Program-made: the position numbers and the translations under genes | Assembly: GCF_035918155.1 (NCBI RefSeq) | Contig: NZ_CP109327.1 | Span: 5,456,001-5,520,000 of the forward strand | Source: Streptomyces sp. NBC_01591 | GTDB taxonomy: Bacteria; Actinomycetota; Actinomycetes; Streptomycetales; Streptomycetaceae | Direction of reading: 5' to 3' | DNA: 64,000 nucleotides | Shown: positions 1 to 4,966 of the stretch, in pieces | How the letters are laid out: each line of letters starts with the position of its first letter | How positions within the stretch are numbered: the stretch's first letter is position 1 | Notes under the pieces: generated by a model | Database searches by the model: none | Seen by the model: the letters and a program-made list of their open reading frames with translations, nothing else | Told to the model about the DNA's origin: nothing

Positions 1-480
1 CCGTCGACCTGGCGAAGAGTGCGCCCCGCCTTCCGCATTCTGCTGGTCGGCAGCTCGTCTCTGGTCCATACGCGCGGACTTGCGGCCGTTGCCGTCTTGC
101 GGATCATCCCTATCCTGCTGTGCATCGCTGTGTTCGTCGGGTTCTCGTACGTTCCGTTTCAGCGATGGCTTTTGCACCGAGTGAGGATTCCAGTACGGCG
201 CTGGCTACGACCCGGCACGAGGGCGACGTATGCCCGCTACGACGAACTGGTCAGCACGCTCATGGGCCGCACGATCAGTCAGGTTGCTCCGGTCATCGCC
301 GAAACTCTTCCGGACAGTGGTCTACGGGCCCGTCCCCTCGTCGCGGCGGCCACCTCGAGGTGGTGGAAAGCCGCTCTCTGGGCAATTTCGGCCCGAGCCC
401 TCGGCCTCTCGTTCCTCGTCCACTGCACGAAGAACCTCGAAGCGATAGTCGACTTCCTGACTCTCCGGTCGGCGTCCTGA
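1..480 (+). CDS. Putative membrane protein, possibly 5'-partial
   Basis: The frame is open from the first base to a TGA at 478-480, so the gene may begin upstream of the window. The first internal start is GTG at 19, giving 153 aa. A hydrophobic stretch near residues 20-45 (AVAVLRIIPILLCIAVFVGF) looks like one membrane segment. A basic region follows (residues 48-70), then a second moderately hydrophobic stretch near residues 115-135. I do not recognise a family. Codon use is less strongly G/C-ending than in the core genes further right, in keeping with the accessory nature of 1-4300. It converges with the small gene ending at 482. It could be a decayed fragment rather than a working gene. 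Confidence 0.4.
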   Translation, partial: PSTWRRVRPAFRILLVGSSSLVHTRGLAAVAVLRIIPILLCIAVFVGFSYVPFQRWLLHRVRIPVRRWLRPGTRATYARYDELVSTLMGRTISQVAPVIAETLPDSGLRARPLVAAATSRWWKAALWAISARALGLSFLVHCTKNLEAIVDFLTLRSAS

Positions 481-481
481 T

Positions 482-808
482 TCAGCGCGGACGTTCTGCA
501 CCGCGCCGCTGGCAGGCGACATGGTTTGCCAGGGCATCGAGCTGTCGGCAGTGGTAGTCAGTGCCCGGTGAGAGTCGTCGCAGTTGCACTTCCCACGGCT
601 GGCCGCCCGGCCGTACGACGATGGCGCAGGTGCCCCTGGCCTGGATCACCATGCAAGGCATCTCCTTGACACGATCGAACACCACCTGACCAGGCTTCAA
701 CTGCCGCCAGGACGTAAACACCTGCGGTGGGCGTGGCACTTCAGTTGGGCGGGCACGACGTTGCATCACGGTCGACGCACCGGGCGGATTAATCCCTCGG
801 TCGTTCAA
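482..808 (-). CDS. Small conserved-type protein, last gene of a three-gene overlapping set
   Basis: This 108-aa protein starts at a TTG (806-808) that overlaps the TGA of the upstream gene, so the two are probably translationally coupled. The body (about residues 30-100) reads as a compact basic domain with Trp, Arg and Cys positions (SWRQLKPGQVVFD, MVIQARGTCAIVVRPGG, YHCRQLDALANHVACQRRG). Internal ATG codons give alternative starts. I do not recognise the family. The overlap chain with the two upstream genes is the main reason to believe it is coding. Function unknown. Confidence 0.5.
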   Translation of the reverse strand: MNDRGINPPGASTVMQRRARPTEVPRPPQVFTSWRQLKPGQVVFDRVKEMPCMVIQARGTCAIVVRPGGQPWEVQLRRLSPGTDYHCRQLDALANHVACQRRGAERPR

Positions 809-1035
809 CCCAACCTCCCGAAGCGCCGCCGGTCGTTCTCATCACGGACGCGAGCCCGAAGGCTCTGGAGCACAGGGCTGTCGGGCTCCACCGGACGGCA
901 TGTCTCACGCACCTTGTCCGAACCGGATTGGATGAGACGATCAGGGCACCCAGCCTCGCCACACTCGCACGGCGGGTAGATGAGCGGCGACCGCCGGGCC
1001 GGAAAATCCGCCCCTTCCCACGCCTCGGAGTCCAT
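805..1035 (-). CDS. 76-aa cysteine-containing small protein
   Basis: The start is an ATG at 1033-1035 whose A is shared with the TGA of the upstream gene (TGATG), and the end overlaps the TTG start of the downstream gene. The protein begins MDSEAWEGADF and contains a CECGEAGC motif near residues 22-29, which could bind a metal, followed by a charged C-terminus rich in Arg, Glu and Asp. A longer reading frame exists upstream to 1272, but the coupling geometry favours the short start. I do not recognise the family. It probably acts together with its two overlapping neighbours. Confidence 0.5.
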   Translation of the reverse strand: MDSEAWEGADFPARRSPLIYPPCECGEAGCPDRLIQSGSDKVRETCRPVEPDSPVLQSLRARVRDENDRRRFGRLG

Positions 1036-1244
1036 CACCGCACCACCACTCCGTGGATGACGCGGGGGCCCACGTCGATGCCGTAGGTCGCCAGCCAGAG
1101 GGCGCAGCGTCGCTTTCGCTGACACCAGGCGCCAAGCCCGAACCTGACTGAACGTCTGCTGGCACCCCGTTGGCGCGGGCGGCGCATGCTGGGGGGCCGC
1201 CACTGAACTAACTGAGCCAGGACCCGCACGATACGATTCATCAC
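1035..1244 (-). CDS. 69-aa basic small protein, first of the overlapping set
   Basis: I place the start at GTG 1242-1244 because a GAGGAG ribosome site lies seven bases upstream on the minus strand. A longer frame to 1322 has no better site. The protein is strongly basic. Its end, WLATYGIDVGPRVIHGVVVR, resembles the tail of small basic proteins I remember from Streptomyces accessory regions, but I cannot name a family. It ends in a TGATG junction with the next gene. This looks like the promoter-proximal gene of a small minus-strand operon that ends at 482. Confidence 0.45.
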   Translation of the reverse strand: MMNRIVRVLAQLVQWRPPSMRRPRQRGASRRSVRFGLGAWCQRKRRCALWLATYGIDVGPRVIHGVVVR

Positions 1245-1570
1245 GTTGACGCTCCTCAGAAGCGTTGACCACGCCCCCGGACCTAGCCCGTCGCGGGGGT
1301 TCTTCATGCCATCGCGCGCCACATCAGGCCCCTGCCGCTGGGCACTTGGCGCACTTCACCGGGTGCCGTTCGGCAGGGCAGGCGAGCTGCTGCGCGACAG
1401 CTTCAGAATGCACTTGAGGGACTCGATCTGCAAGCTCTCATTTAGCGGCTTTCATTTTTCGACACTCGAACATAAGGCCGTCATTGTGAATTGAGGGATG
1501 TGGTGCTCTCATTTCGAGGAACCGGCAGATCGCAGACCGAGGGTCTGCACGTCATCAGAAGGGGTATTAC
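1245..1570. promoter_or_regulatory. Divergent intergenic region with an inverted repeat before the XRE gene
   Basis: This 326-bp gap separates the minus-strand small operon from the plus-strand XRE regulator. It holds no convincing gene. The part from about 1430 to 1500 is richer in A and T than its surroundings and is a likely promoter zone. A perfect inverted repeat lies at 1532-1548: arms GCAGACC and GGTCTGC with a 3-base spacer, 22 bases before the ATG at 1571. It could be the operator of the XRE protein or an mRNA hairpin close to the ribosome site. Confidence 0.5.
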
Positions 1571-2458
1571 ATGACCGATGGGCCCACAGGATCGACGGTC
1601 CCGCGACGGCAACTCGGGCGGTACCTACGCAACTTGCGCAGTGAAGCCCGTCTCACCGTGAAAGCGGCGGCACGCGCGCTTGAGTGGAGTGAAGCCAAGA
1701 TGTGGAGGATTGAGAGCGGGCAAACGTCGCTCCGCAGCCTCGACGTACAGGCCATGTGTGTCGTCTACGGTGCACCTGAGGAGCTCACAAAGGCACTCAT
1801 GGGCGTTGCCAAGGAGACGAAAGCGCGCGGGTGGTGGCACTCCTACGGCGATGTCATCCCGGAAGGGTTCGACCTCTTCATCGGGCTGGAGGAGGCGGCA
1901 TCTGAAGTTGACTGGTATGAGGCCGACCTGATGCCTGGGCTGCTCCAGACCAAGGAGTACGCCCAGACGATCATTCAGCGAGGCAACGGCGACGAGGACA
2001 CGGACGAGGTGACCCGTCGAGTAAACCTGCGTATCGCCCGACAGGTGCTGCTCACCCGCCCCACCGCACCCGCCAACCTGAACGTCGTACTCAACGAGTC
2101 GGTGCTGCGGCGTCCGGTCTGCCACCCCAAGGCTATGGCGGAACAGCTTCGGCACCTGCTGGATGTCGGCGAACTACCGAACGTGAGCGTCCGTGTAATC
2201 CCGTTCGCGGCAGGCTTTCACCTGGGGGTATTGTCCGGCGCGTTCGGCGTCCTGCGGTTCCCGCGCAACCGCGACGGAAGCGAGAGTGAGCCGCCCACGG
2301 TGTACGCCGACGGCTTCACTGGAGACCTCTACCTGGACAAGCCCGCCGAAGTGGCTCGCTACAACGCAGCCTTCGCCGACATCTGCACCAAGGCAAGCGA
2401 CGAACAGGCCTCACGGCGTCTGATCTCTGAAGTGGCAGGGAGTTATGAAAAGCAATAG
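1571..2458 (+). CDS. XRE-family HTH regulator with DUF5753 domain
   Basis: This 295-aa protein has an N-terminal helix-turn-helix (about residues 14-70, with LGRYLRNLRSEARLTVKAAA and the recognition part EWSEAKMWRIESG) followed by the DUF5753 domain (about 105-285, with the usual GLLQTKEYA, RIARQVLL and VSVRVIPF blocks). This is the WhiJ-like architecture. In Streptomyces such proteins work with small DUF397 proteins encoded next to them and influence development or antibiotic production. The ATG at 1571 has a usable purine-rich site (AGAAGG). The 3' end overlaps the first DUF397 gene by 14 bp, so the two are very probably co-translated. Family assignment is firm; the target is unknown. Confidence 0.93.
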   Translation: MTDGPTGSTVPRRQLGRYLRNLRSEARLTVKAAARALEWSEAKMWRIESGQTSLRSLDVQAMCVVYGAPEELTKALMGVAKETKARGWWHSYGDVIPEGFDLFIGLEEAASEVDWYEADLMPGLLQTKEYAQTIIQRGNGDEDTDEVTRRVNLRIARQVLLTRPTAPANLNVVLNESVLRRPVCHPKAMAEQLRHLLDVGELPNVSVRVIPFAAGFHLGVLSGAFGVLRFPRNRDGSESEPPTVYADGFTGDLYLDKPAEVARYNAAFADICTKASDEQASRRLISEVAGSYEKQ

Positions 2459-2648
2459 TTCAACCGGTTTGATGTGGTTCAAGTCCAGCTACAGCAACCA
2501 GCAGTCAGCCTGTGTAGAGGTGGCGGTCACTCGCAGCGGCATGGTTCCGGTCCGTGACAGTAAGAACCTCGGCCCCGTCGTCACCTTCAGCGACCGAAGC
2601 TGGGATGCGTTCGTTGCCGACGTGAAGGCGACGCACTCCACCGACTGA
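2445..2648 (+). CDS. DUF397 domain protein, partner of the upstream XRE regulator
   Basis: This is a 67-aa single-domain DUF397 protein. It shows the diagnostic pattern WFKSSYSNQQSACVEVA, then MVPVRDSKN, then a C-terminal WDAFVADVK. It begins inside the end of the XRE-DUF5753 gene (14-bp overlap), the classic arrangement of this regulator/partner pair. From family knowledge, the small protein is thought to bind or antagonise the DUF5753 regulator. A second DUF397 gene follows after 86 bp. Confidence 0.93.
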   Translation: MKSNSSTGLMWFKSSYSNQQSACVEVAVTRSGMVPVRDSKNLGPVVTFSDRSWDAFVADVKATHSTD

Positions 2649-2734
2649 CCAGCTCTCGCCCTCCGGGTTCAGTGAGCGTACGAGCACGGAGACGCCGTGC
2701 TGTAGCAGTATGGGACCAAGAAGGGTAGTGAGGG

Positions 2735-2944
2735 ATGAGCACCCCCAACTTTGAGGCCGCTCCATGGTGCAAGAGCAGCTACAGCAGCGGCAACGGCCAG
2801 TGCGTTGAGGTCGCGGACGTTCAGGGTGCCGTTCCCGTAAGGGACAGCAAGGCCACAAGCGGTCCGGTCCTGATCTTCGGCTCCGACACGTGGGCCGCTT
2901 TTGTGGCCGGGGTACGCGAGGACCGCATCAGAAACGCCGTCTGA
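2735..2944 (+). CDS. Second DUF397 domain protein in tandem
   Basis: This 69-aa DUF397 paralogue (WCKSSYSSGNGQCVEVADV, VPVRDSKATSGPVLIFG, WAAFVAGVRE) is clearly related to its upstream neighbour. The 86-bp gap and the start ATG at 2735, preceded by GTGAGGG, suggest either read-through or separate expression. Two DUF397 copies behind one DUF5753 regulator could arise by tandem duplication or leave room for a second partner. The msrA-tail copy begins 88 bp after its stop. Confidence 0.9.
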   Translation: MSTPNFEAAPWCKSSYSSGNGQCVEVADVQGAVPVRDSKATSGPVLIFGSDTWAAFVAGVREDRIRNAV

Positions 2945-3032
2945 TCCTTGCCGCGCCCCTCTCGTATCGGTACAGACGTGCCCGCCGGCCAATAGCAGGC
3001 AGGCGGGCACTCACCGGGTCGCAGGCGGCCTG

Positions 3033-3128
3033 TCACTCTCCGGCCGGAGCCACCCCGATCGGGCACGAGACCCCCGTCCCGCCGATATCGCAGTGGCCCG
3101 CCGGGTTCTTGTTGAGGTACTGCTGGTG
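3033..3128 (-). pseudogene. Displaced copy 1 of the msrA 3' end (96 bp)
   Basis: On the minus strand this segment reads as the last 31 residues of MsrA plus a stop: [13 protein letters not shown], then [12 protein letters not shown], then VAPAGE. By eye it differs from the intact msrA tail (4301-4396) at about nine of 96 positions, and both C-terminal cysteines are kept. Similarity stops exactly at the first H codon, at a shared GAGGTACTGCTGGTG, the same break as in the second copy at 3897-3992. There is no start codon or catalytic domain, so it cannot make a reductase. I read it as a displaced gene end left by integration, not as a gene. Confidence 0.85.
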
Positions 3129-3154
3129 GGACCGCTTGCGGTGACAGGTGCTGT

Positions 3155-3739
3155 CTATGCCGACCGGGCAGGGGCGGGATCGCCGGTCCGGTCCGGTACC
3201 TGGCTGACGGCTCGCTGAAGGCGGAGTTGACCGATCTCTGCGACATTCTTCATCAGTTCGGCGTTGACCCAGGCAATCATGTGGGCGACGGTGCGCCGAG
3301 GATCATTCGGCCACGGGAACGGGCCGGTGGTGTCCAGGCGGGCAGGGGTGAGTTGGTCCAGCGCCTCCAGCCAGTCCTCACGCAGGCCGCGCAACCACTC
3401 GACGGTCGGCTTCCCTGCGCCGGGCCAGGTGATGTCCTCCCGCTCTCGGGGCGTTCTCCCGTAGGCGTGATCCACGGCCACGCTCCACCACCAGCCGATG
3501 TGCCAGCTCAGCCAGCCGATGGTCGGCACAGGAACAGGTTCGGGCTCGGTCTCCGCCCAGTCCACTGTCCATGTTCCGTCGTCGGCCCGGTGCACCGTCC
3601 AGCAATCCGCAGCGGGTTCCCACAGGAAGTCATCGGGGACGAGCCGCTCCAGGTGGTACTCGAACAGTGACCACGTCAGGTCGAACTGCCAGCGCAGCAG
3701 GTCAAGTTCGCGGGCAGAGCCATTGGGGGAGTCAGTCAC
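3155..3739 (-). CDS. DinB-superfamily protein (DinB_2-like)
   Basis: The 194-aa protein starts at GTG 3737-3739 ([17 protein letters not shown]). A longer frame runs to 4114, but that part crosses the second msrA-tail copy and reads as low-quality translation. The family is a four-helix metal-binding bundle. Visible signals are YHLERL in the first helix region, [11 protein letters not shown] near the middle and [14 protein letters not shown] near the end, giving a plausible set of His ligands. DinB_2 members are often thiol-dependent (mycothiol or bacillithiol) transferases or detoxifying proteins, so a mycothiol role would suit this organism, but that is inference. The gene lies between two displaced msrA ends and may be cargo of a former element. 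Confidence 0.75.
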
Positions 3740-4300
3740 CGTACGACTTTCGCACGGGGACGGTTCCGGTGAGAAGCGAATTCCCGGCGGGCGGGCCCGC
3801 CCCGCTGTCCTGCGGAGCCGAGGAATTGACGGGGCAGCAGCCGGGCCAGTCGGGTTCGCCGGAGGCATACCAGCTTTTCCCGTGCGATCCCGACGCTCAC
3901 CCGCCGACCGGTGCCACGCCGATCGGGCAGGAGACGCAGGTGCCGCCCAGCCCGCAGTACCCGTTAATGCTGCGCGAAAGGTACTGCTGGTGGGATCGCC
4001 CACGGCCACGGGAGCTGAGCCGACGGGGACTGAGCGGAAGAGTTCGTAGCAGCGCCTCTGAATCCTGCGCGGTGGGAGGCTGGTCCGCCTCCACAGGCGG
4101 CGGCAGCAGGCCATGGCACGGCAGGCCGGCAGGCACCGCCCGTCAGCGACGGTCAGGTCTCGCCCCTCCCTCCGCGCGACCGGCGGCGCAGGGAAACGCC
4201 ACCCTGAGTCGGCCTCACGGGAGAGGCCTCGGCTCAGTCCATCCGCGCAGTCGTCGTTCCCGCCGGAGTCACGTCAGCTCGAACAGGGGTGGGGCGAGGT
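3740..4300. other. Gene-poor stretch holding only a displaced msrA tail
   Basis: Apart from the 96-bp msrA-tail copy at 3897-3992, I see no convincing gene here. Long frames on both strands exist but show no domain, no good ribosome site and no sensible composition. The stretch looks like the eroded inside of an inserted element. Confidence 0.6.
3897..3992 (-). pseudogene. Displaced copy 2 of the msrA 3' end (96 bp)
   Basis: On the minus strand this reads [25 protein letters not shown] and VAPVGG then stop. It is the same 31-residue MsrA tail, more diverged from the intact gene than copy 1 and with one extra Cys. Its length (96 bp) and break point (AAGGTACTGCTGGTG at the far end) are exactly those of copy 1. 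A 79-aa frame continues to 4136, but the part before HQQYL has no MsrA similarity and is probably non-coding. The orientation matches intact msrA. Confidence 0.82.
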
Positions 4301-4966
4301 TCATCCCTCGGCCGGAGCCACCCCGATCGGGCACGAGACCCCCGTGCCGCCGATGCCGCAGTAGCCCGCCGGGTTCTTGTCGAGGTACTGCTGGTGATAT
4401 GCCTCGGCAGGCCAGAACGTGCGGCCCTCCGCCGGGAGGATCTCCGTGGTGATCGCGCCGTGGCCGGCGGCCGTGAGGACCTTCTGGTAGGCCTCGCGGG
4501 AGGCTGCCACCGCGGCCTCCTGCTCGGGGGAGTGGGTGTAGATCGCCGAGCGGTACTGGGTGCCCACGTCGTTGCCCTGGCGGAAGCCCTGGGTCGGGTC
4601 GTGGGACTCCCAGAAGAGCTTCAGCAGCTCGGCGTACGAGACGGTCTTCGGGTCGAAGACGACGCGGACCGCCTCGGTGTGGCCGGTCAGGCCCGAGCAG
4701 ACCTCTTCGTACGCGGGGTTCTCCGTGTAGCCGCCCTGGTAGCCGGCGAGCGTCGTCCAGACGCCGTCCGTCTGCCAGAACTTGCGCTCGGCGCCCCAGT
4801 AACAGCCCAGCGCGAAGTCCGCGACCTCCAGACCCTCCGGGTACGGGCCCAGCAGCGGGTTGCCCAGGACCGTGTGGTGGGACGGGACGGTGAATTCGGG
4901 GGTGGGGCGTCCCTTCAGCGCCTCCTCGGGGGTGGGGAGCTGCGGGGTACGGCGTTGCAGGAACAT
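4301..4966 (-). CDS. msrA: Peptide-methionine (S)-S-oxide reductase MsrA
   Basis: The 221-aa enzyme reduces methionine-S-sulfoxide in proteins and free methionine, repairing oxidised proteins in the cytoplasm. The catalytic motif GCYWGAE (Cys55) is present, followed by the conserved [20 protein letters not shown] region and [13 protein letters not shown]. Cys203 and Cys212 in the C-terminal [15 protein letters not shown] are the likely resolving cysteines. The last 96 bp, which encode both of them, occur twice more downstream. ATG 4964-4966 has a GGAGG-type site upstream (reverse of ctcctcc). If an element really integrated here, the present C-terminus may be element-supplied, yet the reading frame and cysteines are intact. 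Confidence 0.96.

Follow-up and report, generated by a model that had tools for sequence, protein, structure and literature searches.

The 3' end of msrA in Streptomyces seems to be an integration hotspot for serine-integrase elements that bring a coding replacement of the gene end

The window analyzed here, a stretch of 64,000 nucleotides from the genome of Streptomyces sp. NBC_01591, carries on its minus strand an intact msrA gene (positions 4301–4966; PF01625, Pfam PMSR E 1.5e-60) whose product of 221 amino acids is the sole full-length match to itself in the 10.25-Mb genome (E ≤ 0.001). The 3' end of this gene in current use, T1 (4301–4396, minus strand), runs from the HQQYL motif to the stop codon and includes both C-terminal cysteines; the alignment to solved MsrA chains spans this end (..HQQYL..GYCG..SCP), the two cysteines included. 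Two displaced copies of the end are located on the same strand to the left of the gene, namely T2 (3897–3992, minus strand), which is of the SRSINGYC type and similar to the element-borne arms described below (DRNINGYC), and T3 (3033–3128, minus strand), which is of the host type (NKNPAGHC). The preliminary description of this DNA had proposed two extra msrA ends of 96 bp, both broken at CACCAG (HQQYL), and these limits were confirmed exactly. It had put the differences from the intact gene at about nine in one copy and at more in the other; we counted 9 of 96 bases in T3 (6 codons, 5 of them non-synonymous) and 28 of 96 in T2 (17 codons, 9 non-synonymous). Both copies keep the frame from CAC to a stop codon of their own and comprise 31 residues each. 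A repeat search independent of that description placed T1, T2 and T3 in one family (D1) with 88 nt in register, and 68 matches were reached by none of 100,000 pairs of random 96-mers from the window.

Beyond the break, T2 and T3 are adjoined by arms unrelated to msrA (3993–4017 and 3129–3153, minus strand) which have 17 of 25 nt in common, a value equaled by 0.0135% of 200,000 random 25-mer pairs. We read these arms as the putative remnants of an attachment site, which would give just such a common arm. T1 is host-like, being 97% identical to its counterpart in genome G075, which by MsrA identity (95%) is the closest relative found, and T3 is 91% identical to T1; the element-type arm is found on T2 and not on T1.

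Positions 1–4300 are part of an island of about 13 kb which lies between msrA and its chromosomal neighbor and continues to the left of the window to about position -8779. It contains two DUF397 genes (2445–2648 and 2735–2944, plus strand; PF04149), a gene for an HTH_31/DUF5753 regulator (1571–2458, plus strand; PF19054, PF13560) and an ORF that crosses T2 (3155–4114, minus strand). The DinB_2 domain encoded by the latter (PF12867, E 1.1e-21; residues 143–294, about 3233–3688) falls between T3 and T2, and the ORF is likely to be island cargo. In G075, stretches of this DinB-like ORF follow directly after msrA, and the flank of the intact gene matches the 3' flank of T2. An empty site is represented by G204, where homology to the window's left-hand chromosome restarts about 100 bp past the msrA stop codon; the same chromosomal point is about 13 kb away from msrA in the window's genome.

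A further msrA end, T4, is decayed and truncated and lies about 3.3 kb to the left of the window (about -3366 to -3292; L011:16634–16708). It is host-like where alignable and was identified by comparing locally the 20 kb on the window's left, the whole-genome search with full-length MsrA (E ≤ 0.001) having given only the three copies in the window. Directly beside T4, the DNA from -3290 to -344 matches internal sequence of an msrA-associated element in another genome (L050; 87% over 2,967 bp) and also pieces of other msrA elements. The stretch of L050 that holds its large serine recombinase (LSR) gene is missing from the matching island DNA, a tblastn search (E ≤ 0.01) of the window and of the 20 kb adjoining it on the left detected no LSR remnant, and neither RepSA nor FtsK/SpoIIIE was among the proteins scanned from the island. 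To the left of the window the island also includes a large ORF in which a unit recurs several times in nearly identical form (L011:13339–15156).

To place this arrangement within the genus, 392 genomes including the window's own were searched with MsrA, and 99 others with at least two matches were searched again. An intact msrA and a displaced end, 0.3–17 kb apart on the same contig and strand, were present in 21 of the 392 genomes, a number that is a lower bound because the second search covered genomes with two or more matches in the first round, in which up to 7 candidates per genome were scored. Besides the window's genome these are G025, G037, G043, G099, G134, G137, G140, G156, G168, G186, G194, G201, G257, G265, G279, G285, G297, G309, G348 and G350. 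The CACCAGCAGTACCT core, with up to 4 mismatches, is found at the displaced end in 17 of these 20 other genomes (locus L063 among them); it is decayed in G043, and the displaced ends of G137 and G186 start later than the core. Displaced ends also occur where the same contig holds no intact msrA, for example in G212, G032 and G275. Individual loci show further peculiarities. The displaced end of G186 (L056:3095–3181) has an element-like arm, DRNTTGYC, suggestive of a former attL end. In L048 and L060, an insert of about 0.68 kb follows msrA and a nearly identical arm precedes the displaced end; the ends of the working genes differ (DKNPAGYC versus SSSKNPNGYC), as if one had been exchanged later.

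Insertion at gene ends is usually the work of tyrosine integrases. Next to the displaced msrA ends, by contrast, we found serine recombinases instead of a tyrosine recombinase accompanied by long identical cores, tyrosine recombinases having been sought with a loose motif. In 10 of the 21 genomes (loci L046, L047, L049–L052, L058, L059, L061 and L062) the gene for an LSR of about 490 amino acids, termed type A, starts 45–84 bp away from the displaced end and is oriented into the element, and by motif search ten genomes, the window's own included, have no LSR beside the end. With start codons as assigned in this analysis, the LSR gene begins 42–84 bp from the displaced end in all 14 loci measured among 17 with both ends visible. 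Three LSRs were scanned for Pfam domains. Resolvase, Recombinase (PF07508) and zinc ribbon domains were all found in that of L046; the protein of L058 has Recombinase and zinc ribbon domains and a YARIS motif, its Resolvase domain not being listed, and the L063 protein has all three, with the zinc ribbon below the Pfam gathering score.

The elements delimited by msrA and the displaced end measure 2.4–16.9 kb in 14 LSR loci. Seven of the 14 span only 2.4–6 kb, and the five shortest, at 2.4–3.7 kb, have room for little beyond the integrase. Gene content was scanned in part and in five elements. RepSA and FtsK/SpoIIIE are encoded in L046, L049 and L059, accompanied by a phosphotransferase-family gene (PF01636) in L046 and by GntR, NUDIX and NucA/NucB genes in L059; L050 encodes DUF6879, a DUF5753 regulator and a small resolvase, and neither RepSA nor FtsK/SpoIIIE was among the proteins scanned from L050 and L062. 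L046, L049 and L059 thus unite within one element an integrase, a RepSA-like initiator and an FtsK/TraB-like translocase, the combination by which actinomycete integrative conjugative elements (AICEs) are recognized, and by gene content the msrA elements would fit the AICE kind. The RepSA and FtsK/SpoIIIE genes of L046, L049 and L059 and the GntR, NUDIX and NucA/NucB genes of L059 are features in which they resemble AICEs of the pSAM2 type as far as the available part of the AICE survey describes them (PMC3218068).

The two element ends were compared in the 17 loci in which both are visible, each counted once. In all 17, the MsrA frame is uninterrupted and of full length, and the replacement codes in frame for an MsrA end that has both cysteines and closes with a stop codon. 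The codons that follow HQQYL at the gene-proximal end, attL, read DRN[I/V/K].GYC or SS[S/D]KNPNGYC in 16 of the 17 loci, and attL arms are mostly lower in G+C than those of attR, the end beside the integrase gene. Host-like sequences prevail at attR (DKNPAGYC and close variants, and SD.KNP in the Micromonosporaceae), some of the arms being decayed. In 16 loci the arms of attL and attR agree at 60–77% of the 30 nt lying past the core, the exception being L059 with nearly the same arm at both ends. Since MsrA is full length in all 17 loci and the attL end is unlike the displaced host end in 16, the element's attachment half-site seems to serve at the same time as coding sequence for MsrA, both C-terminal cysteines included. 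LSR similarity correlates with similarity of the attL arm (r 0.54, p 0.0004) and of the element's other arm (r 0.70, p 0.00005), and also with that of the host msrA body (r 0.43, p 0.004) and, less closely, of the displaced host arm (r 0.36, p 0.03). Because it also tracks the msrA body, shared host descent explains part of the correlation, which is support and not proof. Displaced ends are present in 7 of 12 genomes with an element-type arm as compared to 14 of 380 others (p 3e-7), an association that is descriptive and partly circular because the search patterns were drawn from those very loci.

Taken together, we consider it highly probable that the last 96 bp or so of msrA are the attachment site of mobile elements that integrate by means of an LSR and carry a replacement end, and that the window represents a decayed stack of displaced ends. 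According to this model, the LSR would cut inside the CACCAGCAGTACCT segment encoding HQQYL, and one side of attP would consist of the element's own in-frame version of the last 32 or so msrA codons. Integration would join the 5' body of the host gene to the element's end, forming attL and leaving the gene whole, and would leave the host's own end beyond the element, adjoining the integrase gene, as attR. Repeated integration, deletion and recombination could then line up several ends in a row. The window would show a late, decayed stage in which T2, T3 and, to its left, T4 remain together with cargo and the integrase has been lost. The three displaced ends need at least three displacements, unless recombination copied ends. 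The swap itself is not displayed by the window because T1 is host-like and not element-type, so that later recombination must be assumed; the sole parallel to this among the 17 loci is L059, in which the similarity of attL and attR arms is 0.93. The cysteines of the exchanged end are presumably the recycling cysteines of MsrA (C218/C227 in the bovine and C198/C206 in the E. coli enzyme). As the end holds these residues, its loss should cost activity; an element that supplies an end of its own would presumably rescue MsrA function and could be tolerated for that reason.

An integration hotspot at the msrA end, with elements that bring a replacement end, had already been proposed in the preliminary description, which suggested looking for strains with an element between the intact gene and a displaced end, for integrase genes next to msrA and for strains with a single msrA end. 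The first exist in the form of the 14 elements measured, an LSR gene adjoins the displaced end in many of those loci, and G204 provides the third. The LSR loci, the contrast between attL and attR and the empty site support the proposal and sharpen it, in that the integrases found are large serine recombinases and the carried piece would give msrA a different, element-type end. The case is weakest at two points. The arms beside T2 and T3 correspond to none of the integrases detected, and attP is a predicted site: neither an unintegrated attP nor a circular form was found, one rebuilt attP had no match in plasmid records, and dyad symmetry in the rebuilt sites is weak, too weak for placing the crossover.

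A further step is an evenly balanced proposition. The attP of these elements might encode the last 32 or so residues of MsrA with both cysteines and be selected jointly by recombinase and enzyme, each integration exchanging the C-terminal tail of MsrA. At least two LSR families may do so, at HQQYL and, judging from two loci, at GTGV, and the tails of Streptomyces MsrA proteins would then partly record past integrations. On a tree of MsrA bodies, element-type arms need at least 8 changes (FastTree, non-random sample).

That T2 and T3 derive from the LSR class is something we infer, and it is possible rather than probable that another enzyme, either a tyrosine recombinase or a different LSR family, made both, type A elements using this spot in other strains and having made only T4. 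The window retains no integrase. The arms beside T2 and T3 are absent from type A sites: they end in ..GRTCC directly before CACC, mostly ..TAC being found there in type A element arms, and the GRTCC-CACC arm with fewer than 2 mismatches occurs in no other of the 392 genus genomes. Moreover, more than one enzyme uses the region because a second LSR family, type B, acts at another point of the same gene end. Its two members, in L063 (G297; gene at L063:3044–4504) and L077 (G045; gene at L077:462–1922), are 97% alike and about 30% identical to type A. The msrA end adjoining them is shorter and breaks at GTGV, about 16 codons nearer the stop codon; attL and attR differ in both loci, and the left arm is also present in L068. 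Against a separate origin of T2 and T3, however, both break at the same CACCAGCAG as type A sites, and T2 is similar to an element-type arm (SRSINGYC versus DRNINGYC).

A collection of 84,980 species genomes yielded 26 loci when scanned with the alignment of type A LSRs. An msrA end lies directly behind the LSR start in 17 of them (L083–L097, L100 and L104, that of L088 being decayed), 15 in Streptomycetaceae and two in Micromonosporaceae (L100 and L104; Dactylosporangium and Actinoplanes); seven of the 17 are genus-sample loci seen again. In L101 (Longispora), the msrA end is situated 1.7 kb beyond the LSR gene and on its strand (L101:13187–13294), unlike in the other msrA loci of the scan. 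The LSR is followed by the end of an RtcB gene in L098 and L099 and of an acyl-CoA dehydrogenase gene in L102 (both families Pfam-confirmed), by a glycine-transporter-family frame in L103 and by open frames of no confident family in L105 and L106; no end of a gene is shown behind it in L107 and L108. Searches with the displaced ends recovered, in the L098, L099 and L102 genomes, each genome's own displaced end (100, 90 and 100% identity to the query), and all other matches reached at most 51%, the closer of the rtcB matches in L099 being on the opposite strand. No restored copy of rtcB or the acyl-CoA dehydrogenase gene was found in these drafts, which are possibly incomplete and in which a very divergent end could escape. 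On the LSR tree, treating the 20 msrA users as one group, two label changes are seen, of which at least one is forced by well-supported branches; among LSRs, use of msrA may have a single origin.

These relatives bear on the idea that LSRs insert near a gene end and alter its last codons by chance, the element carrying no homologous end. Such a scheme would suit the rtcB and acyl-CoA dehydrogenase loci, where no restored copy was found, and other LSR sites, such as that of the phiJoe/SCO2603 elements 74 bp from the ORF end (available part of PMC5311408) or of streptococcal rumA elements, which exchange C-termini with a change of frame (available part of PMC4701971). For msrA it is very improbable, as chance would not yield an in-frame MsrA end with both cysteines and a stop codon in 17 of 17 loci. 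Hardly more tenable is an unequal duplication that produced tandem full-length msrA copies whose 5' parts were then lost, a reading encouraged by the second full-length msrA found in nine genomes but contradicted by displaced ends that share their first codon in 17 of the 20 other genomes, flank the 2.4–16.9 kb elements of the LSR loci and adjoin the integrase gene.

Full-length tandem msrA copies that decay to different lengths had been named in the preliminary description as evidence that would speak against integration. This exists in part: a second full-length copy, interrupted by an internal stop codon in G139, occurs 2.6–31 kb from the first and on the same strand in G037, G045, G139, G156, G157, G233, G244, G271 and G353 (loci L066–L073 and L076–L077). 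These copies, however, are paralogs which share 58–67% identity with the window's MsrA, diverge much further than T3 does, and reach over the HQQYL break.

Phages were considered as the source of the LSR and rejected: 378 records of isolated phages match it, all with less than 60% identity and the best-ranked of the 30 listed with about 31%. None of 51 candidate stretches in viral contigs encodes an LSR relative. The 31-residue msrA end matches five phage records (E ≤ 1), all of them unannotated contigs from human feces, and full-length MsrA matches 26 phage records. Three viral contigs that match an 18-base arm pattern were discarded, as all carry one identical unrelated sequence. No match to msrA lies within 15 kb of an LSR relative (55%) from Nonomuraea.

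Literature searches, which covered few subscription papers and no supplements, returned no paper on msrA as an integration or attachment site, and SCO4956, which we take to be the S. coelicolor msrA tag, did not occur among the matches listed. Protein genes are known targets of elements of this kind. In the AICE survey of Ghinet et al. 2011, 19 of 144 AICEs use serine recombinases, some inside protein genes; as far as its available part goes, the serine-type AICEs sit in a tRNA-Leu gene or in protein genes, one of which is disrupted, whereas the msrA element seems to bring a replacement end (PMC3218068). The LSR sites of the phiJoe/SCO2603 elements of Streptomyces are likewise near the 3' end of a conserved protein gene and often occupied by elements varying in content and size, but the target encodes a radical SAM protein and the available part of the paper mentions no element-borne homologous gene end (PMC5311408). 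Bifidobacterial dnaJ2 prophages also occupy the 3' end of a protein gene and reconstruct it, although by tyrosine integrases and with a 35-bp attL according to the part available (PMC6109161), the msrA elements using LSRs. Islands in trmE and dusA likewise have protein genes as their targets, and the 3' end in the case of trmE (available part of PMC8409611). Accretion of several elements and the trace of one at a single site is paralleled by AICEs at tRNA-Arg in Streptomyces (Choufa et al. 2022); of the 51 insertion sites given in the accessible part of that study, 14 are in protein genes, and msrA may or may not be among them (PMC9513070). Finally, the available part of a streptococcal survey describes the serine integrases of 29 ICEs as disrupting protein genes (PMC4701971).

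In contrast to serine integrases otherwise described as disrupting protein genes, the msrA element group seems to spare its target by means of a coding replacement. It thereby makes testable how one stretch of DNA serves both a recombinase and an enzyme, and it provides Streptomyces vectors with a conserved chromosomal target for which matching integrases exist. Elements of this group would account for msrA ends that lie astray in genomes; the layered scars might preserve a readable record of successive integrations at a single site.

A longer MsrA tail, 'NWG', located beside the type B LSR was considered as a possible element-borne end. This reading was given up because the tail is common in Streptomyces MsrA; it is present in 100 of 119 listed proteins with an HQQYL-like motif, which had been chosen by similarity to one of them. 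As a separate observation, the distribution of N-W-G-like tails on the MsrA-body tree (P0001–P0120) is patchy, with at least 13 changes forced (FastTree, non-random sample).
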